Assembly: GCF_007197555.1 (NCBI RefSeq)
Contig: NZ_CP041614.1
Span: 3,898,001 to 3,962,000, forward strand
Source of the DNA: Shewanella psychropiezotolerans
GTDB taxonomy: Bacteria; Pseudomonadota; Gammaproteobacteria; Enterobacterales; Shewanellaceae
DNA: 64,000 nt
Direction of reading: 5' to 3'
Every line of letters begins with the position of its first letter. Within the stretch, counting starts at the first letter, position 1. This document shows positions 204 to 47,578 of the stretch, piece by piece. Under the pieces are notes generated by a model. It made no database searches, had not been told where the DNA came from, and worked only from the letters and a program-made list of their open reading frames with translations. The translations under genes and the position numbers were made by a program.

Positions 204-2371
204 CTAAAATTTATAAGAGACCGAGGCGCTAAAAGTGCGGCCTGGCTGAGTGGGCTGGTAGCCTGACGTGCCAGCGACATCCTGATAGCGCACATACTCT
301 TTATCGAGTAGATTTTTAATCGACAGATTAACCTTGAAGTGAGCGTAGACTTCATATTGAGCCGCAAGATCGACAATCACCCAGCCAGCAGGTGCCGGGC
401 AATCCTGCGGGCCGGTACGAGAATCGACACAGGTGGTGACATTGGTCATCTCGGTCGCTCCATTGACCAAACCCGAAAGACGTAAATTGTCGTATTGATA
501 GTTGAGGGAAACTGAGCCCTCCAGTGGGGTCAAGGTGCGTAACTTCTCATCGGTGTCATTGTTTTTGCCATCAACCCAGCCCATTTGAAACTGGACGTCC
601 AGATTTTCAGTCAAGTTATAATCTAGGTTGAATTCGCCGCCCCAAGAACTGGCACTGTCGATGTTGACAAATTGACGTTCGAATACGCCATCACTCATGC
701 GGAGTCCAACCTCGATCCAATCGATGAAACCATCGAATTGGCTATAGTAATAACTCGCCGCTATATCCAGATCTTGCCACTGCCAGCGCATGCCCAGCTC
801 GATACTCTCGCTGGTTTCTTCATGCAAATCAGAATTCGGGATGATCTCAAACGGCGGGAAGGCAAACAGGTGAGGAATGCTGCCATAGACCTTGTCGTAA
901 GGGGCGGCGCGGTAGCCCTGTGAATAGGCAAGATAGCCACTTATATCTTCACCAGGATCATAGCTTAGCGAGATACTGGAAGAGACATTATCTGAAGTAT
1001 TGTCTTCCAGTTTAATGTTTGATATTTCAGTTTGTTCTGGTGTCAGGCTATTTCTGTCATAGCGGCTGCTGAGTAGCAGTCCCCAGTTATCACTCAGGCT
1101 AATATCATCTGAGATATACACACTGAATGAATCTGTGCTGGCATCGGCAAAAGGCTGATTTGACCAGTAGGTTTGTTTACCGTTCTCAATCTTATTACGC
1201 TCCTTGGTGCGAGAATGATTGAGGCTCTGCCCTTCTATGCCATAGAGGAAATTATGTTCCATGCCATTTAACTCAGTCCAGAGGTCCATATCGACGCTGA
1301 AGCCATAGGTGCTTTCTTTAAACGTTTCATTACTCTCGTATCTACGGTATCGCTCTTGTACGTTAAGAAATGTACGTGTGAGTAGATCGTTAACTTTATT
1401 TTCGTTTTCAGTCTCACCAGAGAAAATTTGGCCCGATAGGTTATCGAATAAGATGAAGGACTCTGGTGAGTATTGCATCTTGATCTGTTGCACCATTGAG
1501 CTTTGCTCTTCATCTCTGTTGCGCTTTTCCACATCCCAAGCACCATCAGGCTGAGGCACGGAGCCCGGCGCCCCGTGTGTCGATTTTGTCTGACTTTGCC
1601 AGTCACTATTGACGCTCAATAGCCAGTGCTGATTGCTGACAAGATTAGTATTGAAGGAGATACTGGTGCCATCGATATCGGCAGGGGATCGCGTACCGGC
1701 ATAGTTCTGTTGCTCATGGCCCTGCCATTGACTCGCACGTAACATAACTGGAATATCGAATGCTTTAGTAGCTGCGGTGACAGATAACTTTTTCTGCTCG
1801 TTAACGCCGCTGTATAAGGCTTTTAATGCCAGATAATAATCTTTATGGTAGAGGTAATCGGCCGCTTCCTTAGTCTCGACTTTCACCACCCCCCTAAGGC
1901 TCCCGAGCCGAAGAATGAGGATGCGGGTCCCTTGGCCACCTCGATAGATTTAACATCATCGAGATCGAAGTTAAATCGTCCGACACTGTCATTAATGTCA
2001 CTGGCACCATAACCATCGGCCATGCGCACACCGTCTTTTATCATCAGGATGCGATTACCTGTTATCCCTCGAATGGTGATGTTCTGAGGTGTGCCCGCAG
2101 AGCCAGTCACTGAGACGCCGGGTTCATTTCTAAACAGATCAGACAGTTCGGTGGCCACCAAATTTTCAATATCTGCTGCTGTGATCACCACGGCACTACC
2201 CGATATTTCGGTTAGAGGTTTCTCCAGACGGGTGCCTACAACCTTGATCACCTCCATCTTGTCTTTTTTGTGTTCACTATTTGTTGTAGGTTCGACCTTT
2301 GTATATGCTAAGCCACTGTATATGCTGGTAATAACGGTAATTGAAATGGGTAATAATTTCATAAACATCAT
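204..2371 (-). pseudogene. TonB-dependent haem/haemoglobin-type receptor, disrupted by a one-base frameshift
   Basis: Two adjoining frames together make one outer-membrane receptor. The upstream frame holds a signal peptide, a TonB-box-like segment (MEVIKVVGTR) and the plug domain ending GSGALGG. The downstream frame continues with VVKVETKEA and a full 22-strand-type barrel ending in the aromatic terminus SVSYKF. The break falls in a run of six Gs (sense strand) near 1890; seven Gs would restore a continuous frame of about 720 codons. The start at 2371 is preferred over the longer reading to 2398 because a Fur-like box lies at 2406-2424. Divergent neighbours encode an ExbB-like protein, DUF2149 and a CobN-like chelatase, a context known for HmuR-type haem receptors. 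The break could be real decay, phase variation or a sequencing error. Confidence 0.8.
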
Positions 2372-2405
2372 GCTGTAATTGCGAAAGGCCAGCACCATAC
2401 ACCCA

Positions 2406-2424
2406 GATAATAATGATTACCATT
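2406..2424. promoter_or_regulatory. Fur-box-like operator in the divergent haem-locus promoter region
   Basis: GATAATAATGATTACCATT matches 13 of 19 positions of the Fur consensus GATAATGATAATCATTATC. It sits between the minus-strand receptor and the plus-strand ExbB-like gene, so one site could control both directions. A weak FNR-like half site (TTGAT) follows at about 2457. Iron control fits the haem-uptake content; binding is inferred. Confidence 0.55.
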
Positions 2425-2547: not shown

Positions 2548-3075
2548 ATGAACATCGCCTTACTCGAAGGGCTACTCGCTAACCTGTCTGAATATTTGAT
2601 GACACCGGTACTTATTTGTATCGTCTTATTATTGATCTATGCCATCTATGCCATAGGACGATTCGCAGGCTTGTTCTATGTCAGACGTAAGAATGCTCAG
2701 GGATATAGGCAGACGATTCAGATTAAAGAGCGAAAATGGTATTCGGGTTATCCCATACATAACTATTTCGTTAATAATCCAAATGCCTGTGAAGATGAAC
2801 TAGAAATCTTCGCCCTTAAGAAGCTTGAAAATTTACGTGTCGTCACTCGAGTCGCACCCATGCTGGGACTCATCGCCACCATGATTCCCATGGGACCGGC
2901 ACTCAAGGCCCTTGCCGATGGTAATATTCAAGGGATCAGCGAAAGTCTTATCATCGCCTTCGCCTCGGTGATCTGGGGTCTGGTCATCGCCACCCTCACC
3001 TTCTGGCCTGCATCGGTAAAGAAACGTTGGTTCGCCGCCGAGCTGATTAATATCCGCAAGCTAAGGGGAGCGTGA
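2548..3075 (+). CDS. MotA/TolQ/ExbB-family proton channel protein (HmuU-like)
   Basis: A 175-residue inner-membrane protein with one N-terminal transmembrane segment (about residues 15-37) and two later ones. The loop motif VAPMLGLIATMIPMGPAL is the family signature. The ATG at 2548 is chosen over the upstream start at 2497 because CAGGA lies just before it and the extra 17 residues look like leader. The family uses proton flow to energise TonB- or Tol-type machines. The next gene overlaps by four bases and encodes a DUF2149 protein, replacing the usual ExbD. The pair matches hmuU-hmuV of hmu haem loci, and probably works with the CobN-like protein or the haem receptor. I infer a dedicated motor; the general ExbBD system could also serve the receptor. 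Confidence 0.8.
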   Translation: MNIALLEGLLANLSEYLMTPVLICIVLLLIYAIYAIGRFAGLFYVRRKNAQGYRQTIQIKERKWYSGYPIHNYFVNNPNACEDELEIFALKKLENLRVVTRVAPMLGLIATMIPMGPALKALADGNIQGISESLIIAFASVIWGLVIATLTFWPASVKKRWFAAELINIRKLRGA

Positions 3076-3434
3076 AAGTGCGTTTCTTAGATGAAGACGA
3101 AGAGCTCAACCCTATCCTGTCCAGCGTCAACCTGATCGATGTTTTTCTGGTGCTGATCGCCGCCTTGCTGATTGCCATCGCACAGAACCCGTTGAACACA
3201 TTTTCCGCAGAAAATGTCACTGTGGTGAAGAACGCCGGCAAACCCAACATGGAGATCATCGTCAAGGAAGGTAAGGAGATCAAACAGTACAAATCATCGG
3301 GCAATATTGGCAGCGGTCAAGGTGCCCGTGCCGGCATCGCCTATAAGATGGCCGACGGCTCGATGATCTATGTCCCCGAAGACGGCACCAGTTCCACCTC
3401 AGATAAGCAAACTGTCACAAATAACAAGCTATAA
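3072..3434 (+). CDS. DUF2149 family single-pass membrane protein (HmuV-like, ExbD/TolR-like topology)
   Basis: A 120-residue protein starting with GTG inside the stop of the preceding gene (translational coupling). It opens with an acidic cytoplasmic stretch (FLDEDEELNPILSSVNLIDV), then a single transmembrane helix at about residues 22-40, then a periplasmic tail. That is the topology of ExbD/TolR, whose conserved Asp lies at the start of the helix; here the Asp of LIDVFLV sits in that position. DUF2149 genes accompany ExbB-like and CobN-like genes in hmu haem loci. The likely role is stator partner of the ExbB-like protein upstream; the family function is not established. The next gene starts 16 bases downstream. 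Confidence 0.75.
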   Translation: MKVRFLDEDEELNPILSSVNLIDVFLVLIAALLIAIAQNPLNTFSAENVTVVKNAGKPNMEIIVKEGKEIKQYKSSGNIGSGQGARAGIAYKMADGSMIYVPEDGTSSTSDKQTVTNNKL

Positions 3435-3450
3435 AGCGAGCGATAACTTC

Positions 3451-6400
3451 ATGTTTCTACGCGTATTAATCCTGATATTCATGTGTTTTCCCGGCCTTGC
3501 CCAGGCAGACACATCAGCAGACACCCAAACCGGTGCCAAACGAGTGCTCATGGTGATGTCGAATTATAATTCGGCGCCCAAGAAGGCACTGTTAACCAAA
3601 CTGGCAAAAGAACAGCCATTCGAACTCATTCAACTCGTCACCAAGGGCAAGTCAGATGAAGAGATAGCCGAGCAATGGCGCAGCGCCGATCTGGTGATGC
3701 TAGATGGCATCAATCCAGCGTTGTCTGAGTATATGTTCGAGAAGTTCGAAGCCATACCCAAACAATTTCCCAAGTTGAAAATTGTCTCTCTGGGCGATCT
3801 CGAGGGTGAGACATTCAATCAGAACCTTGCCGATGAACAGAGTCAGCGACTAGCAGATTACTTTCGTCATGCCGGTGGCAGAAACTACAAAAACCTGATG
3901 ATTTATATCGCCAGCGATGTGTTAAATATCAGCAAGATAAAGGCTGATAAACCTGCCATCACCCCTGTGACGGGCCTGTATCATCCCCAATATCCTGACT
4001 TGTTAACCGATGAGGAGCAGGCATTCTTCACCTGGCTTGCCCCCACAGAGCAACAAGCCGTTATCGCCATAGGCATTCACCGCTCTGCTATCGATTATGA
4101 ACAGCAAGAGGTCATCGATGCCATGATCAACGGCATAGAAGCTGAAGGCCAACGGGCCTTCGCCTTCTTCTACGACGATAAGGAGACCAAGCTAAAATAC
4201 ACGGACTTGTTGACAGATAACAATGGGAAAGTACGCGCTAACTTGATGATCAACTATCGCTCACTGCATTATGTTAAGAAACGCCGCGATGAATTTGAGA
4301 AGTTAGGCATCCCGGTGATACATGCACTCAACTATGTTGACGGTGACAGCGAGCAGTTTTCACAGGCTCAATCGGGTATATCACCGGGTTTAACCCCATT
4401 TTTTCTGGTTATGCCCGAAGACACCGGCAGTATCGATCCTGTCATCATAACCGCCAATAACAAGGGCAATAAACAAGTGATGCCGGCGCAGATGGACGCG
4501 CTTATCCAGCGCGCCGTCAAGCATGCCAAACTCGCCATCACGGCCAATAAAGACAAGCGAGTGGCCGCGTTTATCTGGAACTATCCTCCCGGAGAGAAGA
4601 ACATAGGTGCCGCATTTCTTGACGTTCCCGCATCACTCGAGGTAATAGCCGAGGCGATGAGACAAGACGGTTATAACGTCAACCCAAAACCTGCCAAGGA
4701 GATCATCGAGGCGGCAGGCAAGCTACTGCGTCCCTACTATCGCAACGAAGACGCCAGTGGTTTACTGGATGAAGACCTGGCCGACCTATTGCCCCTTGCC
4801 GATTATGAAGCTTGGTTCGCAGACTTATCTGAATCGGTACAAAAAGGCATCAACGACCGCTGGGGACTGGCCAAAGACAGCCCCATGCTTACCACTAAAA
4901 ATGGTGAACTGGCCTTCATCATTCCGCGAATGAACCTAGGTAATCTAATCGTACTGCCACAGGGTGGGCGCAGCAACGACATAAGTGAACACTCTTCCCT
5001 GTATCACGACATGAAGACGCCGATAAACCACGGATATCTGGCTATCTATCTCTACGCCAAGCAGATATTCAATGCCGATGCCATCATCCACTTAGGGACT
5101 CATGGCTCACAGGAGTGGCTATTGGGTAAGGAACGTGGCCTGTCAGTGGATGACTCCCCCAACCTGGCCGTGGGTAATGTGCCAGTATTTTACCCTTACA
5201 TCATAGATAATGTCGGTGAGGCCATGCAGGCAAAACGCCGTGGTCGGGCAACCACCATCAGCCACCTGACACCTGGTTTTGCCAAGGCTGGCCTGTATGC
5301 CGATATCGCTAAACTCAACGATCTGCTATCGAATTATCGTCTGTTAGATGAAGGACAAACGAGAGAGAATACCAAGGCCAGAATCACCAAGAAAGTCGAA
5401 GCGCTCAATCTGTTAAAGGATATGGCCATGGACAGGGAAGAATTTGACCGTGACTTCGACCAGAACCTGACCCGACTCCAAGATCAGCTCACTGAGATGG
5501 CCGAGCAGGCTCAGCCGCTTGGGGTGCATACCTTCGGCTTACTACCAAAAGAGCAGCACTTGTATAGCACCATGCTGCAGATGTTGGGCGATGATTTCAC
5601 CAAGGCGGCCAAAGCCTACGAAAAAGACCACGGCCTGACGCTGCCCGCTGATGAGCAAAAAGACAGGCTAAACGTGACTCATCTAGAAGCCTTAGCTGGT
5701 TTTCAACTGCTACAGGCATACATTCAGGGACAACAACTCGAAGGCTTAAGCGATGAGTTGAACGTCTGGCTCACCACGGCGCAACAATATTGGGATAATT
5801 TTGCCAAGATTGCCGAAACAGAAAACCTGCTGGCCGCTATGTCGGCCAAGTATATTCCCGTGTCATATGGCGGCGATCCTATACGTAGCCCGGAATCTGT
5901 GCCTACCGGACGCAATCTTATCGGTTTCAATCCGGCTAAATTACCATCGAAAGAAGCCTATGAGGCTGGCGTGTTCTTATTAGAGCAGACAGTGGCTGAT
6001 TACCGAGAAAAGCATGGTAAATACCCGCAGAAACTGGCCTTCTCTCTCTGGTCCCTTGAAACCATGCGTCATCATGGCGCATTAGAGACGCAGATCCTCC
6101 ATGCCCTCGGCATCAGGCCCAAATGGGATGAGCAAGATGATGTCATAGGTATAGAGGTCATTCCCATGAGTGAGCTCAAGCGCCCGCGGATCGATGTGGT
6201 GGTATCGGCGACAGGCCTCTATCGTGACGCTTTTCCCAATGTCATGTTATGGATGGCCGACGCCATCGACACCATAGCCAAGATGAAGGAGGACAATAAC
6301 TTCGCCTATCGTCACTCACAAGCACTGAAACAACAGCTTGAGGATCAGGGCAAGACGCACGAGGAAGCGGATTATCTCTCCAGTATCCGAATCTTCTCTA

Positions 6401-7410
6401 ACGATTCGGGCAACTACGGCACGGGACTAGCGGATCAGACCTTGGATTCAGGCAGCTGGGAAACCGATGATGCCATGAGCGAGCGTTACCTTAAACGTAT
6501 GGGCTATGCCTACGGCAAGGATGAGAGCCGCTGGAGCGAAAAAATAGAGGACGTGGATCTCTATGGCAAGGTGTTATCCGGTACCGACGCGGTAATATTC
6601 TCCCGCTCGACCAACCTCTATGCCCTGTTGACCAATGACGACCCTTTCCAGTATTTCGGCGGCATGGGTCAGGCTATCCGTAAACTCGACGGCAAAACAC
6701 CTGAAATGTACGTGAGTAACTTACGCCGTAAGGATAGAATCAAGACCCAGACCATGGCCAGCTTCCTCAACAACGAGATGCGCGGCCGTTACCTGCATCC
6801 TCGCTGGATCCAAGCCATGCAGGAGTCAGGTTATGCTGGCGCTACCACCATACTGGATCGTATCAACAGCCTCTGGGGTTGGGAGGTGATGACCCCTGAG
6901 CTGGTGCGGGACGATCATTGGCAGTCGATATTCGAGGTCTACGTCGAAGACAAGTACCAGCTGGATATGCAGGCCTTCTTCGAGGAAAATAATGCCCACG
7001 CTCTGGCGCAAATGTTGGAGCGCATGCTGGAAGCCAATCGCAAGGACTACTGGAAGGCCGATGAGGCGACGCTGAAGAAGATGCTGGAAACCTATATCAG
7101 TCTCGCTAATCGCTTCGATGTCGTCACCGACAACGATAAGTTTACCGAATTTGTCGAGACACAAGGCGCAGGCTTTGGCCTAGCGCCACTGGCACCAGCC
7201 ATGGCGGTGCCGCCAGCACAGACTAATCCGTCCAAGGCTAAACAAGAAGTCAGCGGGCAGAAACTGGAGCAGGTGCAAAAACCTAGTGAGCAAGAAGAGG
7301 ATAACTACTGGTATCTGCTGCCCTTATTCGTCTTGCTGTTTATCTTCTTCGCCGGCGCGGCCAGGCCCCTGTTGGCGAGAGAGCCTCAGCGGAGTAAAGA
7401 GCCTGTGTAA
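3451..7410 (+). CDS. Membrane-anchored CobN-like chelatase (HmuS-type, candidate haem dechelatase)
   Basis: A 1319-residue protein related to CobN/BchH, the large subunit of cobalt and magnesium chelatases. Core motifs are visible, including HLGTHGSQEWLLGK and SNDSGNYGTGL. Unlike cytoplasmic CobN of cobalamin synthesis, it begins with a Sec signal peptide (MFLRVLILIFMCFPGLAQA) and ends with one transmembrane helix (about residues 1285-1305) and a short basic tail, so the bulk should face the periplasm. The start at 3451 is chosen because it puts the signal peptide at the N terminus. No chlD/chlI or cobS/cobT partner genes are present. Linkage to a TonB haem receptor, an ExbB-like gene and DUF2149 is the hmu arrangement, where HmuS is proposed to remove iron from haem. 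The reaction here is inferred. Confidence 0.85.
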   Translation: MFLRVLILIFMCFPGLAQADTSADTQTGAKRVLMVMSNYNSAPKKALLTKLAKEQPFELIQLVTKGKSDEEIAEQWRSADLVMLDGINPALSEYMFEKFEAIPKQFPKLKIVSLGDLEGETFNQNLADEQSQRLADYFRHAGGRNYKNLMIYIASDVLNISKIKADKPAITPVTGLYHPQYPDLLTDEEQAFFTWLAPTEQQAVIAIGIHRSAIDYEQQEVIDAMINGIEAEGQRAFAFFYDDKETKLKYTDLLTDNNGKVRANLMINYRSLHYVKKRRDEFEKLGIPVIHALNYVDGDSEQFSQAQSGISPGLTPFFLVMPEDTGSIDPVIITANNKGNKQVMPAQMDALIQRAVKHAKLAITANKDKRVAAFIWNYPPGEKNIGAAFLDVPASLEVIAEAMRQDGYNVNPKPAKEIIEAAGKLLRPYYRNEDASGLLDEDLADLLPLADYEAWFADLSESVQKGINDRWGLAKDSPMLTTKNGELAFIIPRMNLGNLIVLPQGGRSNDISEHSSLYHDMKTPINHGYLAIYLYAKQIFNADAIIHLGTHGSQEWLLGKERGLSVDDSPNLAVGNVPVFYPYIIDNVGEAMQAKRRGRATTISHLTPGFAKAGLYADIAKLNDLLSNYRLLDEGQTRENTKARITKKVEALNLLKDMAMDREEFDRDFDQNLTRLQDQLTEMAEQAQPLGVHTFGLLPKEQHLYSTMLQMLGDDFTKAAKAYEKDHGLTLPADEQKDRLNVTHLEALAGFQLLQAYIQGQQLEGLSDELNVWLTTAQQYWDNFAKIAETENLLAAMSAKYIPVSYGGDPIRSPESVPTGRNLIGFNPAKLPSKEAYEAGVFLLEQTVADYREKHGKYPQKLAFSLWSLETMRHHGALETQILHALGIRPKWDEQDDVIGIEVIPMSELKRPRIDVVVSATGLYRDAFPNVMLWMADAIDTIAKMKEDNNFAYRHSQALKQQLEDQGKTHEEADYLSSIRIFSNDSGNYGTGLADQTLDSGSWETDDAMSERYLKRMGYAYGKDESRWSEKIEDVDLYGKVLSGTDAVIFSRSTNLYALLTNDDPFQYFGGMGQAIRKLDGKTPEMYVSNLRRKDRIKTQTMASFLNNEMRGRYLHPRWIQAMQESGYAGATTILDRINSLWGWEVMTPELVRDDHWQSIFEVYVEDKYQLDMQAFFEENNAHALAQMLERMLEANRKDYWKADEATLKKMLETYISLANRFDVVTDNDKFTEFVETQGAGFGLAPLAPAMAVPPAQTNPSKAKQEVSGQKLEQVQKPSEQEEDNYWYLLPLFVLLFIFFAGAARPLLAREPQRSKEPV

Positions 7411-31597: not shown

Positions 31598-33772
31598 TTA
31601 CATGAACTTGACGTTAACAGTCAATCCTAACTGGCGTGGATCACCATAGCGTATATATTGCTTGTCTGCCCAGTCTTGATCTGGCTCATTACCAAAGTAA
31701 AAGCCTCGAGTGCCGTATTGCTCATCAAACAGGTTCTTGCCCCAAAGATAAGCCGACCAGACATCAGTCTCATATCCGACACGGGCATTGAAGATAGTGT
31801 AGGCCTGTGATTTTGACTCATTACTGTCTGAGTAGTAAAACTCACTCTTACCACTGGTGGTCAAGTTCGCGAACCAACCTGAATCGGTACGATAGGTCGC
31901 TCCTGCACTGTAAGTGAAGTTAGGTGAATGGGCCAGCTCACGACCGGTTAGATCCACTGTCCCACCGTACTTGTCCTGATAAGCATAATCACCATAAGCT
32001 GTCTCAAGCCAACCAAGACTCGCATACAGCTTGAGATTATCTGTCGCATACCAATTCCCTTCTAGCTCGGCGCCATAGTTGTGTGAGCTACCTGCGTTCT
32101 CGGTATACAGGATAAATTTTTGCGGCTCTTCTGGATTTTGTTGAGACGCTGAAACCTGCTGGTCGCGCCTATCCATGTAGAATAGAGAGAAATTAGTGCT
32201 GGCATCACCATCGAGCCAGCGTGATTTAAGCCCTATCTCATAATTATATAAGGTTTCGGTATCATACTCTTTCTTGTCTGACAGCTCCGCTGGCAATGAC
32301 ATGTTGAAACCACCCGCCTTATAACCACGAGCTATGCGCGCATAGGTTTCATGACTGCTGTTTAACGCCTTACTCAGGGCAATATGTCCGCCCCACATGG
32401 TTTCACCTGGGCTAAACTCATCACCAGCACTGTCGCTGTAATCACCGTCTCGACGTTCGACTCTAAGGCCAAAAGACAAGGCGTAACCCGCACCGAGATC
32501 TGAGTCTAACTGGCCAAATACGGCAGTATTATTCGCTTCATATTCGGCAGCAAGCGTGTCTAACCAGCCGTTATAGTCTTCAACTGTGTCGTTGTCTTCA
32601 GTTAAGCGCATACCATAAACACCCAGTAACCAATCTGTGCTACCAGAAAAGATACGTCCAGCTTCAGTTGAGCTGAATCTAAACTCTTGGCTAATGGTAT
32701 TTCGCTCCCCTTCTTTATCCCAGGTATAATCGAATTGGCAAGGCTCGCCGCCACAATCGAGTCCGCCCCAGTAATCAGGGTTTGCCCAGTCACCATCATA
32801 ATTATGGTGAGTCTGAGAGTTAGCATATGATGTTAAAGAAACGATTTCGAACTGCTCGGCACCTGAATAGGTAAACTTAAGCGAGCTACCTGTGGTGCGC
32901 TGCTTATCGACGCCTGGCGCGTCTGTTAGGGTATTTTCGCCATTGTTATCTAAGGTCCACACATCATAGCCATTATCATAATCGGCGTGAAGTAAGGTAA
33001 AATCAATCTCCAAATCGTCGCTGGCATACCAACGCAATTTCGCCCGGCCGGTAAACTCATCCCGGGCATTGGTATCGTCGCGGTTCAGATAGAGGTTGTT
33101 TTGATAGCCGTTCTGTTGATGTTGCTGCAAAGAGACACGGTAAAGTAATTTGCCGGAATCCGTCAAAGGCCCAGAGCTAAAGCCGCTAAAAGTCGTCAGG
33201 TTATCATCCCCCACCGACACTTCAGCCCCATGCTCAAACACATCGGTTGGGTCATTACTCTTAAGGTATATCAAACCCGCTAAGGCATTAGCGCCGTAGC
33301 GCGTTCCTTGTGGACCACGCAGCACTTCTACCTGCTGCAGATCGTACATACTGGAAATCATGCCCAGACCTGACATGTCGATATCATCGATAATGTAACC
33401 AACAGATGAATTCGGCGCACCTTGGTATTCCTCCTGCTCGCCGACACCACGAATTTGGAAGTATTTAGGACGAGAGCTGCCGCCGGACCAGTTAAAGTTC
33501 GCGATGGAGTTAAGCACATCTTCAAAATGCTGCGCGCCTTCGTCTTCTATCTGCTGCTGATCGATAATCGTAATACTCGACGGCATTTTATCCAGTGTCG
33601 AGCCGCGAAAATCAGAGGTCACCACGATGACTTCCATCTCATCGGAAGGTGTCTCAGTTGGTTCAGAAGCGAAAGCGTTTGGGCTGATTAGTGCGGTCGA
33701 TACCGCGAGCGCTACCGGAGAGAATCTCTTCAAGACGGTAGAATCGAAACATAAAGATTTAAGTGTAAACAT
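31598..33772 (-). CDS. omr1: TonB-dependent receptor, thiamine-regulated (Omr1-like)
   Basis: 724 residues from the ATG at 33772, preceded by GGGGTCCT; a longer in-frame reading to 33874 has no such site and lacks a proper signal peptide. Signal peptide cleavage is near NAFASEP, followed by a TonB-box-like MEVIVVTSD. The plug domain carries VEVLRGPQGTRYGANALAGLI, and the C-terminal barrel ends in VNVKFM. A TPP riboswitch lies directly upstream and thiamine genes directly downstream, as described for Omr1 thiamine receptors of gammaproteobacteria. It should import thiamine or a derivative across the outer membrane. Confidence 0.88.
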   Translation of the reverse strand: MFTLKSLCFDSTVLKRFSPVALAVSTALISPNAFASEPTETPSDEMEVIVVTSDFRGSTLDKMPSSITIIDQQQIEDEGAQHFEDVLNSIANFNWSGGSSRPKYFQIRGVGEQEEYQGAPNSSVGYIIDDIDMSGLGMISSMYDLQQVEVLRGPQGTRYGANALAGLIYLKSNDPTDVFEHGAEVSVGDDNLTTFSGFSSGPLTDSGKLLYRVSLQQHQQNGYQNNLYLNRDDTNARDEFTGRAKLRWYASDDLEIDFTLLHADYDNGYDVWTLDNNGENTLTDAPGVDKQRTTGSSLKFTYSGAEQFEIVSLTSYANSQTHHNYDGDWANPDYWGGLDCGGEPCQFDYTWDKEGERNTISQEFRFSSTEAGRIFSGSTDWLLGVYGMRLTEDNDTVEDYNGWLDTLAAEYEANNTAVFGQLDSDLGAGYALSFGLRVERRDGDYSDSAGDEFSPGETMWGGHIALSKALNSSHETYARIARGYKAGGFNMSLPAELSDKKEYDTETLYNYEIGLKSRWLDGDASTNFSLFYMDRRDQQVSASQQNPEEPQKFILYTENAGSSHNYGAELEGNWYATDNLKLYASLGWLETAYGDYAYQDKYGGTVDLTGRELAHSPNFTYSAGATYRTDSGWFANLTTSGKSEFYYSDSNESKSQAYTIFNARVGYETDVWSAYLWGKNLFDEQYGTRGFYFGNEPDQDWADKQYIRYGDPRQLGLTVNVKFM

Positions 33773-33884
33773 AGGACCCCAAATTATAATTTTTGAGATC
33801 CGGCAACTGGAAAAGCGAGAAAGGATGTTGTGGTCGACTACAGATGTTCTTAACAGACACCTCGAAAGCATCAAACCTATTGGC

Positions 33885-39792: not shown

Positions 39793-41796
39793 TTACTCAG
39801 GCACACTAGCTTGCATGATAGTCACCTGGTTATTAGAGCCGAAACTCGTCACATTCGCTGTGTTGTATGCGTCATACTGACTCACGCTCACAACGTTTCC
39901 AGCTCCGCCTTCCACATAGATATCAGTAATGTGATGCTGACCATATTGAACCACATCGATATCATTACCTGCGCCAGTGAAAGACTCAACAGTCGCGCTG
40001 TTAAACTCGCCAGTCTGAGCGATATCAATTTGCGAACCGCTATCGGCAGCGTCTGCATAAGCTAAGTTTTCAGTACCCGTTTGAGTGATATGAATAATGT
40101 TGTCATTACCATAAGTACCCGCACCTAAGTCATCACCATACCAATTGCTCGCAGTCGCGCTGTTGGTTACACGGTTACCTGTACCTGACTGCACGATGAC
40201 AATTTCACTCGCGTTACCACCTTGAGTTGCAGCACCTGCATAGTTGTCACTGCCCATTTGAGTCACACTGATGGTATTACCGAAACTAAAATCAGTTTGG
40301 TCGATAAGCACTGTGTTTGAATTACCAGTTTGAGATACAAGCGCTGTATCATTAGTACCGGCTTGATTGATAGTGGCCGTGTTACCCGAACCTTCAAGAC
40401 TTCCACCTTGAGTTAAGGTTAACGAGTTACTCGCGCCGCTTTGGTCGATATTAGCAATGTTTGAGAAATCATTTTGAGTTACGTTAGCCGTCTGTTCATC
40501 ACCAGTTTGAGTGATACTTGCATCGTTAAGTGAACCCGTTTGCAGCACACTTGCTGAACTTCCGAAGCTGTTCTGATCAACTGACACTAAGTTTTCTTCC
40601 CCAGTCTGATCGATATCGGCAGTATTCCCTTCGTCTAGCTGATCGACTAGCGCAATGTTACCCGCTGCAGTTTGATCTATATTGGCAATATTCAAATCAC
40701 CAACTTGGTTAAGCACTGCACTGTTACCTGCAGCTGACTGAACGACATAAGCTTGGTTAGCTTCACCGTCAGAGTTAATGACAGCTTCGTTGCTTCTAGC
40801 CGATTGAAGTACATCGGCAATATTACCCAGACCACTTTGCTGAACATCGGCAGTATTGAAGCGAGCACTCTGCTTTACCCTGGCATTGTTATTGCTGCCA
40901 TCTTGGTTAACGAAGGCTATATTTTTCTTTGCTGTTTGACGAATAAAGCCAGTGTTATCATTACCAAGCTGGTCAAGTGAGGCGGTATTTTTTGCCTTAG
41001 TTTGACGAATATGGCCATCATTTCGATCGCCAGTTTGAGTTAACGCTGCAGTGTTCTTTTTAGCAAACTGTTCAACTAAACCTATATTGTCATTGCCTGA
41101 TTGAATCAGTTCTGCTCGTGTAGTATCTGTACTACCATCATGAGCGAAGTTACCCGTTTTCTGCAGGATATCACCATCATTGCCAGAACCCGTTTGAGTT
41201 AGTTCAGCGAATGCTGCATCAGAGCGGTCTTGTGAAACATACGCATTATTTCCTGCACCCGTATTTTGCTCAATCGTTGCAGTAGCATTATCAGACCAAT
41301 GATTGTCAATTTCAGCGGTATCACCATTTCCATTTTGAATAACTGAAGACACTGCCGCATCTGCGTTATTTTGAGTAATCGTTGCTGTATTTTCGTTGCC
41401 ATTTTGAGCAACCGATGCAAGTGCTGACTGCTCATTATTTAACTTCTGAACGATTGATGCAGTGTTTTCATTACCGATTGAATCGACAGTGGCTAACGCA
41501 GATGACGTTGCATCTTTTTGATCTATTGTTGCTGTATTACCGTTACCTTGCTGATTAATGCGGGCTTCAGTCTCAACTGTTCTCGCTTGAGTTGCTGTCG
41601 CAGTATTATTCGAACCTTCCTGGTTAACTAATACTTTGTTGTATGAGCTAGCATCAGTTTGAGTCACTGTCGCCGTGTTCTGTACACCGCCGACTTGAGA
41701 GACTTCCGCTACATTATGAGTGCTATCCGCGGCATAAACGCTTGTTGATGCTAAGAGTGCTGCTGATACTACAAGTGCGATTTTGGTCTGCTTCAT
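39793..41796 (-). CDS. csgA: Giant CsgA-like major curlin, about 27 repeats
   Basis: 667 residues, more than four times E. coli CsgA (151). After a signal peptide (cleavage near SVYAADS), almost the whole protein is a run of about 27 units of 22-24 residues with the curlin pattern Q-x-G-x-x-N-x-A-x-(I/V)-x-Q. A central block (about 225-330) carries basic units ending in KKN, KAKN or RFN, such as FIRQTAKKN. The C-terminal units are more divergent, with Tyr and Trp. It follows a CsgB-like gene by 18 bases, forming a csgBA pair. It aligns from end to end with the 574-residue curlin at 45148-46872, the main difference being extra central units. It should form extracellular amyloid fibres. Confidence 0.92.
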   Translation of the reverse strand: MKQTKIALVVSAALLASTSVYAADSTHNVAEVSQVGGVQNTATVTQTDASSYNKVLVNQEGSNNTATATQARTVETEARINQQGNGNTATIDQKDATSSALATVDSIGNENTASIVQKLNNEQSALASVAQNGNENTATITQNNADAAVSSVIQNGNGDTAEIDNHWSDNATATIEQNTGAGNNAYVSQDRSDAAFAELTQTGSGNDGDILQKTGNFAHDGSTDTTRAELIQSGNDNIGLVEQFAKKNTAALTQTGDRNDGHIRQTKAKNTASLDQLGNDNTGFIRQTAKKNIAFVNQDGSNNNARVKQSARFNTADVQQSGLGNIADVLQSARSNEAVINSDGEANQAYVVQSAAGNSAVLNQVGDLNIANIDQTAAGNIALVDQLDEGNTADIDQTGEENLVSVDQNSFGSSASVLQTGSLNDASITQTGDEQTANVTQNDFSNIANIDQSGASNSLTLTQGGSLEGSGNTATINQAGTNDTALVSQTGNSNTVLIDQTDFSFGNTISVTQMGSDNYAGAATQGGNASEIVIVQSGTGNRVTNSATASNWYGDDLGAGTYGNDNIIHITQTGTENLAYADAADSGSQIDIAQTGEFNSATVESFTGAGNDIDVVQYGQHHITDIYVEGGAGNVVSVSQYDAYNTANVTSFGSNNQVTIMQASVPE

Positions 41797-41814
41797 TTGT
41801 GTTTTTCCCTTTCC

Positions 41815-42360
41815 CTAGTTAGACGCATGGCCTTGAGTGATGACGGCTGTTTGTGAACTGCCCCACTGAGCCACACTGACTACATGCCCGGAACCATTTT
41901 GCTGGATCCAGACTGAGTTTTCGTATCCTGTTTGATGTATATAAGCCTGATTACCATAGCCATTTTGAGTCACATCTATCTCAAGAGCCGTACCGAGCTG
42001 ATTGGCTATAACCAAATTGCCATAACCCGTTTGTTGTATGCTCGCTTCGATATCTGAGCCAGATTGCAAGAGTAGAATTTCATTACTGACTCCTTGTTGG
42101 CTGGCGATAAGTGAAGTGTTGTAACCAGTCTGTGCCAGATATAGCTCATTGCTCATACCCTGCTGGCTTATATTCGCAGAATGGCTATCGCCTATCTGGT
42201 TGACTAAAGCTTGATTCCCTGCACCAGAGAGTTCATCGAAACTACTGATATCTTCATCTGCGTGGGCCATAGGAGATAAAAACAAACCGGTGATCACCAG
42301 GAGTTTCCCCCAGTGATTCAACAAACTCTTTTCCATTTTATCCATGTTTGTAAGCAACAT
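41815..42360 (-). CDS. csgB: CsgB-like minor curlin (nucleator)
   Basis: 181 residues. GCAGGA precedes the ATG at 42360. Signal peptide cleavage is near PMAHADED. The mature part has about six curlin repeats with Gln and Asn ladders (ALVNQIGDSHSANISQQG, YLAQTGYNTSLI) and ends in VSVAQWGSSQTAVITQG, which is shared almost exactly with the short CsgB-like protein at 44440-44727. In E. coli CsgB anchors to the cell through CsgF and templates CsgA. Length and position before a giant csgA fit that role. Confidence 0.88.
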   Translation of the reverse strand: MLLTNMDKMEKSLLNHWGKLLVITGLFLSPMAHADEDISSFDELSGAGNQALVNQIGDSHSANISQQGMSNELYLAQTGYNTSLIASQQGVSNEILLLQSGSDIEASIQQTGYGNLVIANQLGTALEIDVTQNGYGNQAYIHQTGYENSVWIQQNGSGHVVSVAQWGSSQTAVITQGHASN

Positions 42361-42788
42361 CTTGCATCCTGCATTAACCAGTCAAAATATTGACGTTAGT
42401 ATGTCGCTAACAGGGGGGAACATCATCATCCAAAAGTATGAAGCCAGATAGCTCAAACATCGTATTTTCACAAGCTAACTAGTCCCTTATTACTACAACT
42501 TAAGTACTATCAAACAAAGGATTTCTGCAAGCTACCGGGCCACCTAAAATGTAATGACTTGTAAAACAAACTGTTACACGCTTGCCCGCAGATTTACACG
42601 AGTTGTAAACAGGTGCGCGCACTTATGAACTAAGAGTAATTCCATTTGGCATATTTTGAAAACTTCAGCTAGGACAATAAAAACTCTAGAATTAGAAACA
42701 GAACGGGGGTAACTTGTGATCATCTTGCACAAATAAAAAAGGGGCGTTTCCGCCCCCTCAATCTAATCAATCAAAAATAGTTAACTAT
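42361..42788. other. Gene-less stretch between curlin units
   Basis: No coding frame was recognised. It contains the terminator of the curlin gene to its right (42735-42758) and should hold the promoter for the csgBA pair to its left. Confidence 0.45.
42735..42758 (-). terminator. Intrinsic terminator after the 543-residue curlin gene
   Basis: GGGGCG and CGCCCC arms with a tetraloop; on the minus strand the stem is followed by a run of six Ts. Confidence 0.92.
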
Positions 42789-44420
42789 TTAAATTGAACC
42801 TTGAGTGACAACGACTGTGTTACCAGCACCTGTACTGGAAACATTTGCGGTGTTACTCGTATCATATTGATGAACTGTCACACTGTTACCCAGTCCATAA
42901 CCAACAAATACATTGGCTTCATGGTTCGAGCCATACTGGTCAATGTCTATGATATTTTGGTCGCCGAAGGCAACAGCGCTGATAAAGTTATCTTGGCCAT
43001 CCTGAAGCAGATCGACATTAGAACCGCTATAACCTGAAATAGACTCAACGGTATTATCTGTACCATGTTGGTTGACTGTTAGCGTGTTACTGTCTCCTAT
43101 GGTTCCTGAATACCCTATAGAACCTGTCAGAGATTGACCTTCACCAGTTTGAGTCACATTTACCGTATTATCTCCACCAAAAGCGGTAACAACACCAGCA
43201 TAATGAGCATCACCAGTTTGATTAACCGTGATTTCACTGTCATGGCTACCTAAGCCTTGGTAAATAGTTGTATTGTTACTTGTGCCGTTTTGAGTGACTG
43301 ACGATGTGTCGCTATCACCGTATTGCTCAACCCTAGAATAGTTACCAAATGCTGGGTCGGTAGCCGTTTGAGTCACAGTGGCAGTGTTACCGTTATTGCT
43401 TTGATCAATATCAGCGTTATTGCCCCCGCCATACTGGTAAACGTTAGCAGTTTGAGATGTGCCCAACTGATCAACGCTTGCTAGGTTATCAGCGGAAGAT
43501 TGCATCACTAATACATCACTATCCTTACTAAATTGATTCACTACTGCTGTATTGCCAGTATCAGACTGAGTGACATAAGTCGTGTTTCTATCACCTGTTT
43601 GAGTGACCGTAGCATCGTTATTTTCAGCATTCTGTGCAATCGTAGCTGAATTACCATTGCCGCTTTGAGTCACAGTTGCGCCATTGTGCTTAGCGTTCTG
43701 CTCAATATCACCTAAGTTACCATTACCCGTTTGAGTAATGGTCGCTGTTGTATCATCGGTTTCAGACCAGTCATCAGCTGTGGTCGTCTGATAAATGATT
43801 CCAGAGTTACCACTGCCGGTTTGAGTTACGTCTGCAGAGGCATAATCTGAGTCAGTTTGACCAATATAACCATAGTTACCGCCACCGATGTTCTGGGTGA
43901 TGGTAGCCACCGCTCTATCTGTTTGTTGGTTATTGATTATTGCAGTATCGCCGCTTCCATTTTGATCTATGCTAGAAAGCGATGCATCGGCACTGTTTTG
44001 TGTAACTTGCGCCGTATTACCGTTACCATTTTGAGTGATCAAGGCATGAGCACTCTCTTCTGTACCATTTTCTTGAAGGATTGTGGCTAAGTTTCCGTCA
44101 CCAATGGTATTAATCGTCGACAATGAAGTATCTGCGGTGTCTTTCTGAGTGATATAAGCTTGGTTACCTGAGCCATCCTGGTCGATGTCTGCGCTAGTAT
44201 CTTGAGTATTAGACTGTGTTGCTGTAGCAAGGTTACCTGAGCCAAGCTGATCAATAGTCACATCATTAAATGAACTATCTATTGCTTGTGTCACTGTTGC
44301 TGAATTTCCAGCCCCATCTTGGTTAACTGTTGCTAGATTATTCGTACTATCTTCAGCTAAAGCGCCTGTCGACACAATTAAAGCTGCCGATACTAATAGT
44401 GCAATTTTAGATTGTTTCAT
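42789..44420 (-). CDS. csgA: Giant CsgA-like curlin, about 22 repeats
   Basis: 543 residues. Signal peptide cleavage is near GALAEDS, then repeats of the Q-x-G-x-x-N-x-A type throughout, for example TATVTQTATD and GATVTQSGNGNSATIAQNAE. It is more divergent from the other two giants than they are from each other; its C-terminal third has the irregular units GVVTAFGGDNTVNVTQTGEG and SISGYSGSNVDLLQDGQD. The last unit, NTANVSSTGAGNTVVVTQG, matches the C-terminal cap of the others. AGGAAACAGGG precedes the ATG. It follows the short CsgB-like gene by 19 bases and has its own terminator. Confidence 0.92.
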   Translation of the reverse strand: MKQSKIALLVSAALIVSTGALAEDSTNNLATVNQDGAGNSATVTQAIDSSFNDVTIDQLGSGNLATATQSNTQDTSADIDQDGSGNQAYITQKDTADTSLSTINTIGDGNLATILQENGTEESAHALITQNGNGNTAQVTQNSADASLSSIDQNGSGDTAIINNQQTDRAVATITQNIGGGNYGYIGQTDSDYASADVTQTGSGNSGIIYQTTTADDWSETDDTTATITQTGNGNLGDIEQNAKHNGATVTQSGNGNSATIAQNAENNDATVTQTGDRNTTYVTQSDTGNTAVVNQFSKDSDVLVMQSSADNLASVDQLGTSQTANVYQYGGGNNADIDQSNNGNTATVTQTATDPAFGNYSRVEQYGDSDTSSVTQNGTSNNTTIYQGLGSHDSEITVNQTGDAHYAGVVTAFGGDNTVNVTQTGEGQSLTGSIGYSGTIGDSNTLTVNQHGTDNTVESISGYSGSNVDLLQDGQDNFISAVAFGDQNIIDIDQYGSNHEANVFVGYGLGNSVTVHQYDTSNTANVSSTGAGNTVVVTQGSI

Positions 44421-44439
44421 TTCCCTGTTTCCTCTTCCT

Positions 44440-44727
44440 TTAGTCCGATGCTTGACCCTGAGTCACCACCGCGGTTTGCGAACTTCCCCATTGAGCAACA
44501 CTTATCCTGTGTCCTGTGCCGTGTTGCTGAATTAAAATTGAATGCTCATAGCCCGTCTGGATGCTATACACGGAGTTATCTTGGCTGGATAGCTCATCTA
44601 AGGAGCTCAGATCTGAGTTGGCGAAGACATAAGAAGAAAAAGTGCAGGACACTAACAGGTAACTAAAGAGTGTAAACACTTTAGTTTTAAGAATAAGCCG
44701 TTTATTACGCTGTCCTTGCGAATCCAT
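44440..44727 (-). CDS. csgB: Very short CsgB-like curlin with about two repeats
   Basis: 95 residues. A basic N-region and hydrophobic core (VFTLFSYLLVSCTFSSYVFA) make a signal peptide. The mature part, under 60 residues, starts SDLSSLDELSSQDNSVYSI, parallel to the SSFDELSGAGNQALV start of the larger CsgB-like protein, then jumps to the C-terminal repeats ending VAQWGSSQTAVVTQG. It therefore keeps both ends of a CsgB but lacks about four internal units. It pairs with the giant curlin 19 bases downstream. Whether so few strands still nucleate amyloid is unknown. Confidence 0.82.
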   Translation of the reverse strand: MDSQGQRNKRLILKTKVFTLFSYLLVSCTFSSYVFANSDLSSLDELSSQDNSVYSIQTGYEHSILIQQHGTGHRISVAQWGSSQTAVVTQGQASD

Positions 44728-45147
44728 GTCGATAAACCAGTGTCAGATTATTGACGTTGATTATGTAGGCATAAAATACTAGCGACATCCATCTAAAGTA
44801 TTAACGATCAGGTCATAAAGTTGTATATGCAGCAGGTAAGCAATACCTTTCTACTACAACCTGGACAGTGTGTCCTTAGTCCACACAAAGCCTATGTAGA
44901 TCCTTTTACCTTCATAAAAGGATTAAATATGCCGTTAGTTCTGAACTGCAAATATAATCTCCATAAAGCAGCATAATAACGGAGCCTTCATCTGATCCTT
45001 CAAAGTCCAAAACACCAGTCGTAAAACAGCAAGACTTATTGAACCTAGCCAACAGACAAGTATTCAAATTCTGTGATTCACCCAGCAATCTTAAATAACT
45101 AAAAAAAGGGGCCTAAGCCCCTTGAAAAGTCACTACAAACTTAATAA
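44728..45147. other. Gene-less stretch between curlin units
   Basis: No open frame was recognised. It carries the terminator of the curlin gene to its right (45101-45123) and presumably the promoter of the short csgB-csgA pair. Confidence 0.45.
45101..45123 (-). terminator. Intrinsic terminator after the 574-residue curlin gene
   Basis: AAGGGGCTTAGGCCCCTT (minus strand) is a compact hairpin followed by a run of Ts, 25 bases after the curlin stop. Confidence 0.92.
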
Positions 45148-46872
45148 TTACATAGTACCCTGAGTGACCATAACAACGTTATTAGAACCGGAACTTGTCA
45201 CGTTGGCTGTATTGTAGGAATCTGTTTGAGTCACACTAACAGAGTTCATTGAACCACCTACAACATAGACATCAGCAAGATGATAATCGCCAGTTTGGCT
45301 GACAGACAGGTCATTTTCGCTACCGAACCATGACTCAACCGTCGCATCGTTAAACTCGCCTGATTGAGCTATATCAACAGATGAATTATCATGAGAAGCA
45401 TCAGCATAAGCAGTGTTATCATTACCTGATTGGCTAATTACTAGCATGTTATTAGCACCGTAAGTACCCGCGCCTATATCTGAACCATAATAATTATTAG
45501 CATTGTCATTATTCCTAACACTGTTGTTAGTACCAGTCTGAGTGATAGTGATGGAACTGCCACCACCTAATTCAGTAGCGGCACCAGCGTAGTTCGAAGC
45601 ACCAGATTGAGTCACTGAAATATTATTATCATAGCTGTTAGCACTTTGAGCGATCACCACTTGGTTTGAATTACCAGTTTGGCTCAATGTAGCTGTATCG
45701 TTATCACCATCTTGATTAACAGTAGCCGTATTACCAGTACCAAAATCACTTCCACCTTGAGTAAGTGTTAGACCATTACCTAGACCAGACTGAGTTACTG
45801 CAGCTGTATTTGAAAAATCATTCTGTGTGATTATGGCCGACTGATCCGCACCCGTTTGAGTCACAGTTGCGCCGTTACTTTCTCCAGTTTGAGTAACCTG
45901 AGCCAAACTACCAGAACTTGTTTGCGCGATAGTCGCACCATTGCTTGGTCCACTCTGATCGACATTTGCAGTGTTGCCGTTACCTACTTGATCAACATCT
46001 GCAGTATTACCCATAGCGGTTTGAGCTACAGTCGCAGTATTAGAGTCACCATCTTGAACTACGTCAGCAGCATTTGATTCAGCGCTCTGAGTGACACTAG
46101 CAGTGTTTAAATCGCCTTCTTGTAAAACAACAGCACTGTTATGCATGGCTGTTTGAGAAATAAAACCAGTATTTGTCGCCCCAGATTGAGTCAATGAAGC
46201 ATTGGTATCGTCTGTGCCATTCTGCCAGCGATTGCCAGTGTTCTGAAGAATATCACCATCATTTCCTGAACCCGTTTGAGTTAAGTCGGCTGTACTGTGA
46301 TCAGATACAGACTGATCTACATATGCATTATTTCCTGTACCTGTATTTTGGGTTACCGTCGCTGTTGCATAGTCTGACCAGTAATTATTAATCTCAGCAG
46401 TATCACCATTACCATTTTGAGTAATTGTCGAAACAGCTCCATCACCATCGTTTTGAGTGATTGTTGCAGTGTTCTCATTACCATTTTGTGCGATTGCCGC
46501 GTTAGCAGATACAGCATTGTTCAGCTTCTGTGTGATGTACGCTTTGTTGTCATTACCAACAGTATCAACAGTCGCAACAGCTGTTTCAGTCGCATCCATC
46601 TGATCTACAGTAGCCAGGTTATCATTACCTGTCTGGTTAATAGTCGCAGTTGTTTGCGCAGTTCGCGCTTGAGTCGCATGGGCAGTGTTACCGTTACCAG
46701 TTTGACCGATAGTAACTTGGTTATTTACGCTCTCATCGGTTTGAGTCACGGTAGCAGTATTACTGCTACCGTCTTGGTCCACTGTAGCTCTGTTTTGAGT
46801 ACTCGCAGCATTGGCACCAAATGATGCAAATAGTGCAGCCGAAACTAATAGCGCAATTTTAGAATGTTTCAT
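45148..46872 (-). CDS. csgA: Giant CsgA-like curlin, about 23 repeats, solo unit
   Basis: 574 residues. Signal peptide cleavage is near GANAAST. The repeats are regular, for example TATINQTGNDNLATVDQ and TADVDQVGNGNTANVDQ. It shares long stretches with the 667-residue curlin, such as LTQTGSGNDGDILQ, GNNAYV and a YGSDIGAGTYG-type segment, and ends with NTANVTSSGSNN. It lacks the block of basic repeats seen in the larger paralogue. There is no CsgB-like gene directly upstream, and it has its own terminator, so it forms a separate unit. AACAGGG precedes the ATG. Expected to be an extracellular amyloid subunit. Confidence 0.92.
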   Translation of the reverse strand: MKHSKIALLVSAALFASFGANAASTQNRATVDQDGSSNTATVTQTDESVNNQVTIGQTGNGNTAHATQARTAQTTATINQTGNDNLATVDQMDATETAVATVDTVGNDNKAYITQKLNNAVSANAAIAQNGNENTATITQNDGDGAVSTITQNGNGDTAEINNYWSDYATATVTQNTGTGNNAYVDQSVSDHSTADLTQTGSGNDGDILQNTGNRWQNGTDDTNASLTQSGATNTGFISQTAMHNSAVVLQEGDLNTASVTQSAESNAADVVQDGDSNTATVAQTAMGNTADVDQVGNGNTANVDQSGPSNGATIAQTSSGSLAQVTQTGESNGATVTQTGADQSAIITQNDFSNTAAVTQSGLGNGLTLTQGGSDFGTGNTATVNQDGDNDTATLSQTGNSNQVVIAQSANSYDNNISVTQSGASNYAGAATELGGGSSITITQTGTNNSVRNNDNANNYYGSDIGAGTYGANNMLVISQSGNDNTAYADASHDNSSVDIAQSGEFNDATVESWFGSENDLSVSQTGDYHLADVYVVGGSMNSVSVTQTDSYNTANVTSSGSNNVVMVTQGTM

Positions 46873-47305: not shown

Positions 47306-47578
47306 TTACATCTTATTCAACCAACTAAGTTTAGCTCGGTACAACCTCTGGATTTTAGGCATTTCGGCATATTCCAAGGCCAATTTAATCGAGTTTCTTG
47401 CTGAATTACGTCTTCCCAGGGCATATTGTGCCCTAGCGAGATCAAAATATGCCTTGTGATAATAGGGGGTGTTTTTTAACTTAGCAGTAAGAGTAATGTA
47501 CTCAAGCCAAGCAATACCGAGACACCTTGCCAGAACCTCACGGGATCCCTCTCTAAAAATGAGCGTCCCACTTCCGGT
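47306..47578 (-). other. TPR-like coding remnant overlapping the kinase gene end
   Basis: One minus-strand frame is open from about 47578 to a TAA at 47306 without any ATG, GTG or TTG start. Its second half reads YYHKAYFDLARAQYALGRR, then NSARNSIKLALEYAEMPK, a pattern like a TPR helix pair. It runs in a different frame through the last 100 bases of the kinase gene. It may be the C terminus of a lost gene or a former extension of the kinase reached by a frameshift; translation from here is doubtful. Confidence 0.3.

Follow-up and report, generated by a model that had tools for sequence, protein, structure and literature searches.

CobN and BchH/ChlH are cytoplasmic class-I chelatases that work with AAA+ partners. 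Their relative HmuS, the haem de-chelatase of gut Bacteroidota encoded in hmuYRSTUV, is distinguished by Met-79, His-254, a Met-rich insertion and the motif LSLDHxxEFMGG (EMBO J., PMC12583661; this and the other papers cited by PMC number are represented here by parts of their text). The accompanying HmuU and HmuV resemble ExbB and ExbD (PMC10100974) and have been assigned to powering the receptor (PMC10100974, PMC12583661), and DUF2149/HmuV has been proposed as diagnostic of haem (PMC10100974). In Pseudomonas aeruginosa, a CobN-like gene of so far unexplained role belongs to PA1922-PA1925, which is regulated by Zur and induced 45- to 147-fold in a znuA mutant (PMC4542158; also PMC8531726, PMC8456098, PMC10393844, PMC9431628); Zur control of PA1922 is described as unique to this species in its genus (PMC10393844). 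One further relative bears in its source the name "CobN-like chelatase BtuS for metalloporphyrine salvage" (P0129). Here we analysed a related locus in a stretch of 64,000 nucleotides of Shewanella psychropiezotolerans (NZ_CP041614.1, positions 3,898,001 to 3,962,000; hereafter the window), whose genome is a single contig of 6.45 Mb.

In this locus, a trio of genes for an ExbB-like, a DUF2149 and a CobN-like protein diverges from the gene of a TonB-dependent receptor, with a Fur-like box in between. Pfam searches matched all three members of the trio (PF01618, PF09919 and PF02514), as a preliminary description of this stretch had anticipated. We propose that the module is under Fur control and that its periplasmic class-I chelatase, driven by an ion motor, removes the metal from an imported iron tetrapyrrole, probably haem; we give this proposal an even chance of being right.

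The CobN-like protein belongs to a proteobacterial family separate from CobN and HmuS

In a 67-row tree (quick LG+G4 run), the window protein was located in a proteobacterial clade of 40 rows, with a Shimodaira-Hasegawa-like approximate likelihood ratio (SH-aLRT) support of 100, separate from HmuS, the type B proteins described below, CobN and BchH; the clade again received a support of 100 in a reduced set of 25 rows. The approximately unbiased (AU) test on the 25-row tree (mixture model, quick search, one long branch flagged and uneven composition) rejected the union of the window's group with HmuS (p 1.4e-8) and with CobN (p 5.8e-5). Besides its position in the clade, the window protein shows the adjoining ExbB and DUF2149 genes, the C-terminal helix and the VxGQxL motif of a proteobacterial ExbB-DUF2149-CobN-like family. 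Judged by its sequence, it is a member of a family sister to HmuS, a cousin rather than a copy. Its closest named relative among our searches is the protein of Shewanella benthica DSM 8812 (96% identity).

A role in cobalamin synthesis was rejected, since the window genome contains neither a second PF02514 protein nor CbiC/CobH, the only corrin-synthesis marker searched for, and the AU test also separates the protein from CobN. This agrees with the initial view that the protein is not a cobalamin CobN. AAA+ chelatase partners were absent from the 16 window sequences scanned with Pfam; no genome-wide search for them was made. The protein exceeds the cut-off of NF004644, the NCBIfam equivalog "cobaltochelatase subunit CobN" (1276 bits; cut-off 1248), but this model fits a Pseudomonadaceae group best, reaching 2300 bits with the anchored protein of locus L137, so the CobN name is probably misleading. 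Since NF004644 matches anchored module proteins, public databases probably misname members of this family.

The module was found in Alteromonadales, Pseudomonadaceae, other Proteobacteria, a Geobacteraceae plasmid and a Runella plasmid, at odds with the idea that the arrangement is known mainly from Bacteroidetes. The sampled genome G162, which we take to be a member of the Pseudomonadaceae from a 16S signature, belongs to a family of 198 genomes with at least 34 matches at ≥40% identity to its CobN-like protein. We examined 21 of these matches (L070 and 20 regions), and the tree divided them into PsI (7 loci), PsII (13 loci) and L134, which joined the window's group. The gene order of PsII is that of PA1922-PA1925, and PA1923 is presumably a member of PsII. 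Three further observations concern the wider family. The anchored CobN-like proteins of type B (L074-L082) have no description in the literature consulted. On a plasmid of Runella slithyformis (L087, 1518-9552), genes for a receptor, an annotated urease accessory protein, ExbB, DUF2149 and a CobN-like protein stand between hypF and hypCDE. A plasmid of Cupriavidus campinensis (L088) bears tandem CobN-like genes, one of them coding for an anchored protein with the VxGQ motif.

The residues that characterize HmuS, numbered as checked on the structure 9d26, are missing from the window protein. In the alignment, Met-79 is replaced by Ile and His-254 by Ser; in the window's group, His-254 is present in 0/14 proteins and Met-79 in 1/14, although Met-79 itself is aligned in only 2/3 HmuS. 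The place of LSLDHxxEFMGG is occupied by LLTNDDPFQYFGG, and all 14 members of the group have Asp for His-1209 and Gln for Glu-1212. The Met-rich insertion of domain IV is also absent, with 43 Met-free residues between the flanking columns, versus 96 residues including 6 Met in L089, which adjoins 9d26 in the tree. The motif HFG(T/A)HG with His-538 is present as HLGTHG and is non-specific; His-538 and Glu-577 are conserved in every aligned row of all groups. No hmuY-like or hmuT-like gene lies beside the trio according to the open reading frame (ORF) map; no homology search for them was made. The missing residues and the AU test led us to reject a true HmuS, and the suggested hmu arrangement was not supported.

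ExbB and DUF2149 accompany an anchored chelatase

In every DUF2149-positive genome, a PF02514 gene lay no more than about 4 kb from DUF2149, both in a sample of the class (18/18, from 274 genomes) and in a sample of the family (12/12, from 146 genomes), the window genome being counted in both. Among 64 module loci, 17 of which had been picked through DUF2149, ExbB is present in 62 and DUF2149 in 61 (62 with a Pfam match in L080). The single transmembrane (TM) helix of DUF2149 contains the ExbD-like sequence N-(L/M)-x-D, whose Asp is conserved in 60/61 aligned members and replaced by Glu in Runella. The AlphaFold model of DUF2149 (mean predicted local distance difference test score 55) is confident in the helix only. 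Sequence searches of the PDB gave nothing below E 0.4 for DUF2149 and MotA/PomA matches at E 0.02-0.08 for ExbB.

The full CobN-type body and the C-terminal membrane helix given in the preliminary description were both recovered: PF02514 covers residues 136-1207, and the hydrophobic segment starts at residue 1289 (Kyte-Doolittle 19-mer mean 2.11). A hydrophobic C-terminal end was observed in 55/56 module proteins at a threshold of 1.2, chosen after the values had been inspected, and in 41/56 at the preset threshold of 1.8, whereas 0/15 CobN/BchH proteins reached either value. At the N-terminus, a hydrophobic stretch closes with A-x-A (MFLRVLILIFMCFPGLAQA) in a by-eye reading; the hydrophobicity test used for this end is non-discriminating, since 5/10 CobN pass it too. 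The protein is anchored and probably exported to the periplasm, and the signal peptide first proposed stands as probable.

In the proteobacterial clade, a motif V-x-G-(Q/M/V)-x-(L/M) lies 14-22 residues ahead of the C-terminal hydrophobic stretch. The strict pattern is present in 14/14 members of the window's group, 5/5 of group A2, 7/7 of PsI, 11/13 of PsII and in Azospirillum, but not in Diaphorobacter or Comamonadaceae (38/42 in total), and the loose form in 42/42, with about 4 expected from shuffling. Outside the clade, Cupriavidus shows the strict form and Trichlorobacter and Runella the loose one. CobN/BchH proteins gave 0/15 strict and 1/15 loose matches; the loose VxGxxL pattern is non-specific, being found in 1/10 CobN. 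TonB has a short ExbD-binding D-box directly past its helix (PMC10907165); the likeness of VxGQxL to it is only an analogy, because the residue patterns differ.

Promoter boxes and receptor types vary together in the family

We scored 15-base Fur and Zur patterns in each promoter region against 200 dinucleotide shuffles. The box of the window reached p 0.005 and 12 of 14 positions, which bears out the Fur-like box noted at the outset; when up to 2 mismatches are allowed, the Fur pattern has 115 matches across the 6.45 Mb genome, versus 40 for a reversed control. For the window's group, 19 regions were scanned (18 intergenic regions and L134): a Fur match of at least 11/14 was found in 15/19 and p ≤0.05 in 11/19, and a Zur-like box in 0/19 by either match count or shuffle p. 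PsI showed p ≤0.05 for Fur in 6/7 regions and Zur in 0/7. In PsII, Zur reached at least 11 positions in 4/13 regions and p ≤0.05 in 5/13, and Fur 0/13; some start sites in this group are uncertain (the ORF of L126 is short), and the scan may therefore have overlooked boxes. The scattered Zur boxes in PsII fit the statement that, within its genus, only P. aeruginosa has PA1922 under Zur control (PMC10393844). Among five other relatives (L066, L067, L068, L071 and L073), only L073 had a Fur match (p 0.015); L084 gave p 0.035, its Fur match being poor (9/14), and the remaining 10 rows outside the three groups showed neither Fur nor Zur. Control of the window locus by Zur or NikR was rejected.

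The receptors show a corresponding division. The three intact window-group receptors tested (L012, L003 and L006) all exceeded the cut-offs of TIGR01785 and TIGR01786, and the receptors tested from PsI (2) and PsII (2) are CirA-like and remained under these haem cut-offs. A His between FRAP-like and NPNL-like motifs is a mark of haem receptors; we found it in 15/15 window-group receptors, 7/7 of PsI and 1/13 of PsII (L132, in another place). From these patterns, the window's group appears to be under Fur-type control and its PsII relatives partly under Zur-type control, with the type of receptor going along with the control.

The HmuS residues were distributed otherwise. His-254, His-1209 and Glu-1212 occur together in 13/13 PsII proteins and also in Azospirillum, compared with 0/14 of the window's group and 0/7 of PsI; His-1209 is also present in 2/5 other relatives (L071 and L072). 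The bis-His site, expected to follow iron, was found to follow the Zur-box group instead. Its presence in PsII and not in the Fur-type groups indicates that the site does not mark iron control.

A proposed ion-driven demetallation step and its alternatives

In the proposed mechanism, the haem-type receptor, broken in the window and whole in most of its kin, would import an iron tetrapyrrole, most likely haem, to the periplasm. There, with its C-terminal helix embedded in the inner membrane, the class-I chelatase-like protein would run in reverse and remove the metal. Because the bis-His site is absent, the window protein would need a His/Asp site like that of CobN, formed by the superfamily His (His551) and by Asp1064, whose place is taken by a second His in HmuS. 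An ion channel of the Ton/Tol kind, made of ExbB and DUF2149, would replace the ATP-driven CobST/ChlID partners; acting on the C-terminal helix and the VxGQxL motif, it would move or open the chelatase. A proton-driven demetallation step is plausible. The freed Fe(II) could enter by FeoB, which is present in the window genome.

Several observations weigh against this proposal. The receptor gene is broken in the window genome, and HutZ, of the ordinary haem-iron route, is present there. The haem-linked HmuS residues are absent in the window, and yet His-254, His-1209 and Glu-1212 are present in all 13 members of the Zur-box group. The motif is found in 0/9 type B and 0/2 HmuS proteins, though both have ExbB/DUF2149, and the anchored chelatase of L088 has the motif with no ExbB/DUF2149 in 15 kb. 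The available text assigns HmuU/HmuV to powering the receptor (PMC10100974, PMC12583661). Recombinant HmuS without TM helices makes protoporphyrin IX when NADH but no motor component is supplied, and in lysates the reaction does not require ATP (PMC12583661).

One alternative is that ExbB/DUF2149 is only the Ton motor of the neighbouring receptor, with TonB supplied from elsewhere, and that the CobN-like protein needs no outside energy. This corresponds to the published view of HmuU/HmuV and is in line with the activity of recombinant HmuS in vitro without these partners. However, a profile search of the surrounding stretch showed the trio without a receptor in L074, L078 and L085, Trichlorobacter has a separate canonical ExbB-ExbD-TonB set beside the module, and DUF2149 was detected, in a control line of the class search, in Methanosarcina acetivorans, which as an archaeon has no outer membrane; M. 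barkeri has been reported to be without the operon altogether (PMC10846266). Together with the constant proximity of DUF2149 to a PF02514 gene in both genome samples, these observations suggest that ExbB/DUF2149 acts on the chelatase, and we regard the purely receptor-directed motor as rather unlikely.

The substrate could instead be a different metal carrier, namely a tetrapyrrole or chelate of zinc, cobalt or nickel; such a substrate has been suggested for the relative in P. aeruginosa. The Zur-like boxes at 4/13 PsII loci and the Zur regulation of PA1922-PA1925 (PMC4542158, PMC8531726) argue for this, and the window protein shares with cobalt CobN the Asp at the place of His-1209. Single cases suggest other metals as well: the Runella locus, within a hyp hydrogenase cluster and with a urease accessory gene, points to nickel, and the Trichlorobacter locus, near bzaF, to cobalt. 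For the window's own group, the Fur boxes, the haem-type receptors and the lack of Zur boxes speak against another metal, as does the missing CbiC in the window genome, and we find it unlikely there.

It might also be that the locus is decaying in this strain and that the set does not work with its receptor broken. The preliminary description had given a divergent, haem-type TonB receptor; its orientation was confirmed and its haem type is probable, but the gene is split into two ORFs in different frames; the frame changes around 1883-1889, not far from a short C run. Each half matches TIGR01785/TIGR01786 best, and both remain under the cut-offs because the gene is broken. A split receptor is also seen in L014 (Thalassotalea), and the module is patchy in the family, with DUF2149 in 12/146 genomes. 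On the other hand, the receptor is one ORF in 16/18 window-group loci covering the gene, including a single ORF of 731 aa in L002 and L012; the other three genes of the locus have open reading frames and share 93-98% identity with those of L002 and L012; another gene for a TonB receptor is present elsewhere in the window (31598-33874); and the break could possibly be a sequencing error. Decay seems unlikely.

Transfer of a true HmuS from Bacteroidetes, to which the ExbB, DUF2149 and receptor genes in common and a narrowly best PDB match (HmuS 9d26, 404 bits, versus 401 for CobN 7c6o) might point, is scarcely credible given the tree and the missing HmuS-specific residues and insertion.

Organization of the locus

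The features of the locus are listed in Table 1. The gene overlaps reported previously were found only in part: the ExbB and DUF2149 genes overlap, but the likely ATG of the CobN-like gene lies 16 bases past the DUF2149 stop. Elsewhere in the window, at 39793-46872, three consecutive genes code for large curlin-repeat proteins (543-667 aa) and are followed at 47476-49359 by a gene for a protein with PP2C and protein-kinase domains.

Table 1. Coordinates of the features of the locus in the window.
Feature	Position	Strand	Basis
ExbB/TolQ/MotA-like membrane protein, 175 aa	2548..3075	+	PF01618, E 1.1e-7; TM2/TM3 alignment
DUF2149, ExbD-like: single TM helix (residues 14-38), then periplasmic part	3072..3434	+	PF09919, E 8.2e-31
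Codon of DUF2149 TM Asp23	3138..3140	+	Alignment of 61 members: D 60, E 1
CobN-like (class-I chelatase-like) membrane-anchored protein, 1319 aa, probably periplasm-facing	3451..7410	+	PF02514, 1014 bits, residues 136-1207
Probable signal peptide of CobN-like protein	3451..3507	+	By eye
HLGTHG motif of CobN-like protein; second His = HmuS His-538	5089..5106	+	Alignment
Asp1064 of CobN-like protein, position of HmuS His-1209 (LLTNDDPFQYFGG)	6640..6642	+	Alignment
Juxtamembrane motif VSGQKLE of CobN-like protein	7249..7269	+	Motif search
C-terminal TM segment of CobN-like protein	7315..7371	+	Hydrophobicity
Fur-like box between receptor and ExbB gene	2408..2422	+	12/14 positions of TGATAATNATTATCA
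N-terminal part (signal, plug) of haem-type TonB-dependent receptor, first ORF of broken gene	1883..2398	-	PF07715, 4.5e-25
Beta-barrel part of haem-type receptor, different frame	204..1889	-	PF00593, 5e-44; TIGR01785, 240 bits (cut-off 317)

Comparison with known systems

Our analysis joins the HmuS haem de-chelatase of gut Bacteroidota with the CobN-like gene of unexplained role in the zinc operon of P. aeruginosa, two subjects whose literatures, in the parts available, do not mention each other; in the open-licence PMC literature, we found no paper linking HmuS with PA1923 or proposing a motor-driven chelatase. By this reading, many proteins now called "cobaltochelatase subunit CobN" would be exported enzymes of metal salvage, and DUF2149/HmuV would not be diagnostic of haem, contrary to the proposal in the available text of PMC10100974. 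Whether an ion motor powers periplasmic demetallation becomes a testable question. As a tentative generalization, to which we give somewhat less than an even chance, class-I chelatases would comprise the cytoplasmic ATP-driven form (CobNST, ChlHID) and a second, widespread form in the envelope: an exported chelatase that ExbB/DUF2149 drives directly by way of the chelatase's C-terminal helix and a motif resembling the D-box. A change of promoter and receptor may fit this envelope form to iron (window's group) or zinc (PA1922-25 type).

With hmuYRSTUV of Bacteroidota, the window locus shares an anchored class-I chelatase, an ExbB-like protein, DUF2149, a TonB receptor and the His-538 motif. It differs in that its chelatase belongs to a separate clade and lacks Met-79, His-254, His-1209, Glu-1212 and the Met-rich insertion, in that no hmuY/hmuT-like gene adjoins it, and in the VxGQxL motif, which was unmatched in the two HmuS tested. 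The type B loci, of the same class, likewise combine an anchored CobN-like protein with ExbB and a weak, very divergent DUF2149; their proteins, however, form their own clade, have 1433-1495 aa, show RHS for THG in the His motif and lack VxGQxL. CobN and BchH/ChlH belong to the same family, PF02514, and have the active-site His, and 10/10 CobN have Asp at the place of His-1209 as the window protein does, whereas the C-terminal hydrophobic end is found in none of the 15 compared. PA1922-PA1925 contains the same four kinds of genes (CirA-like receptor, CobN-like, ExbB/ExbD-like and DUF2149), and Pseudomonadaceae loci with that order, some with Zur boxes, fall in the CobN-like clade of the window. 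In contrast to the Zur/zinc control and CirA-like receptor of that operon, and to the His-1209/Glu-1212 of the Pseudomonadaceae Zur-box group, the window locus has a Fur-like box, a haem-type receptor and Asp/Gln at these positions.

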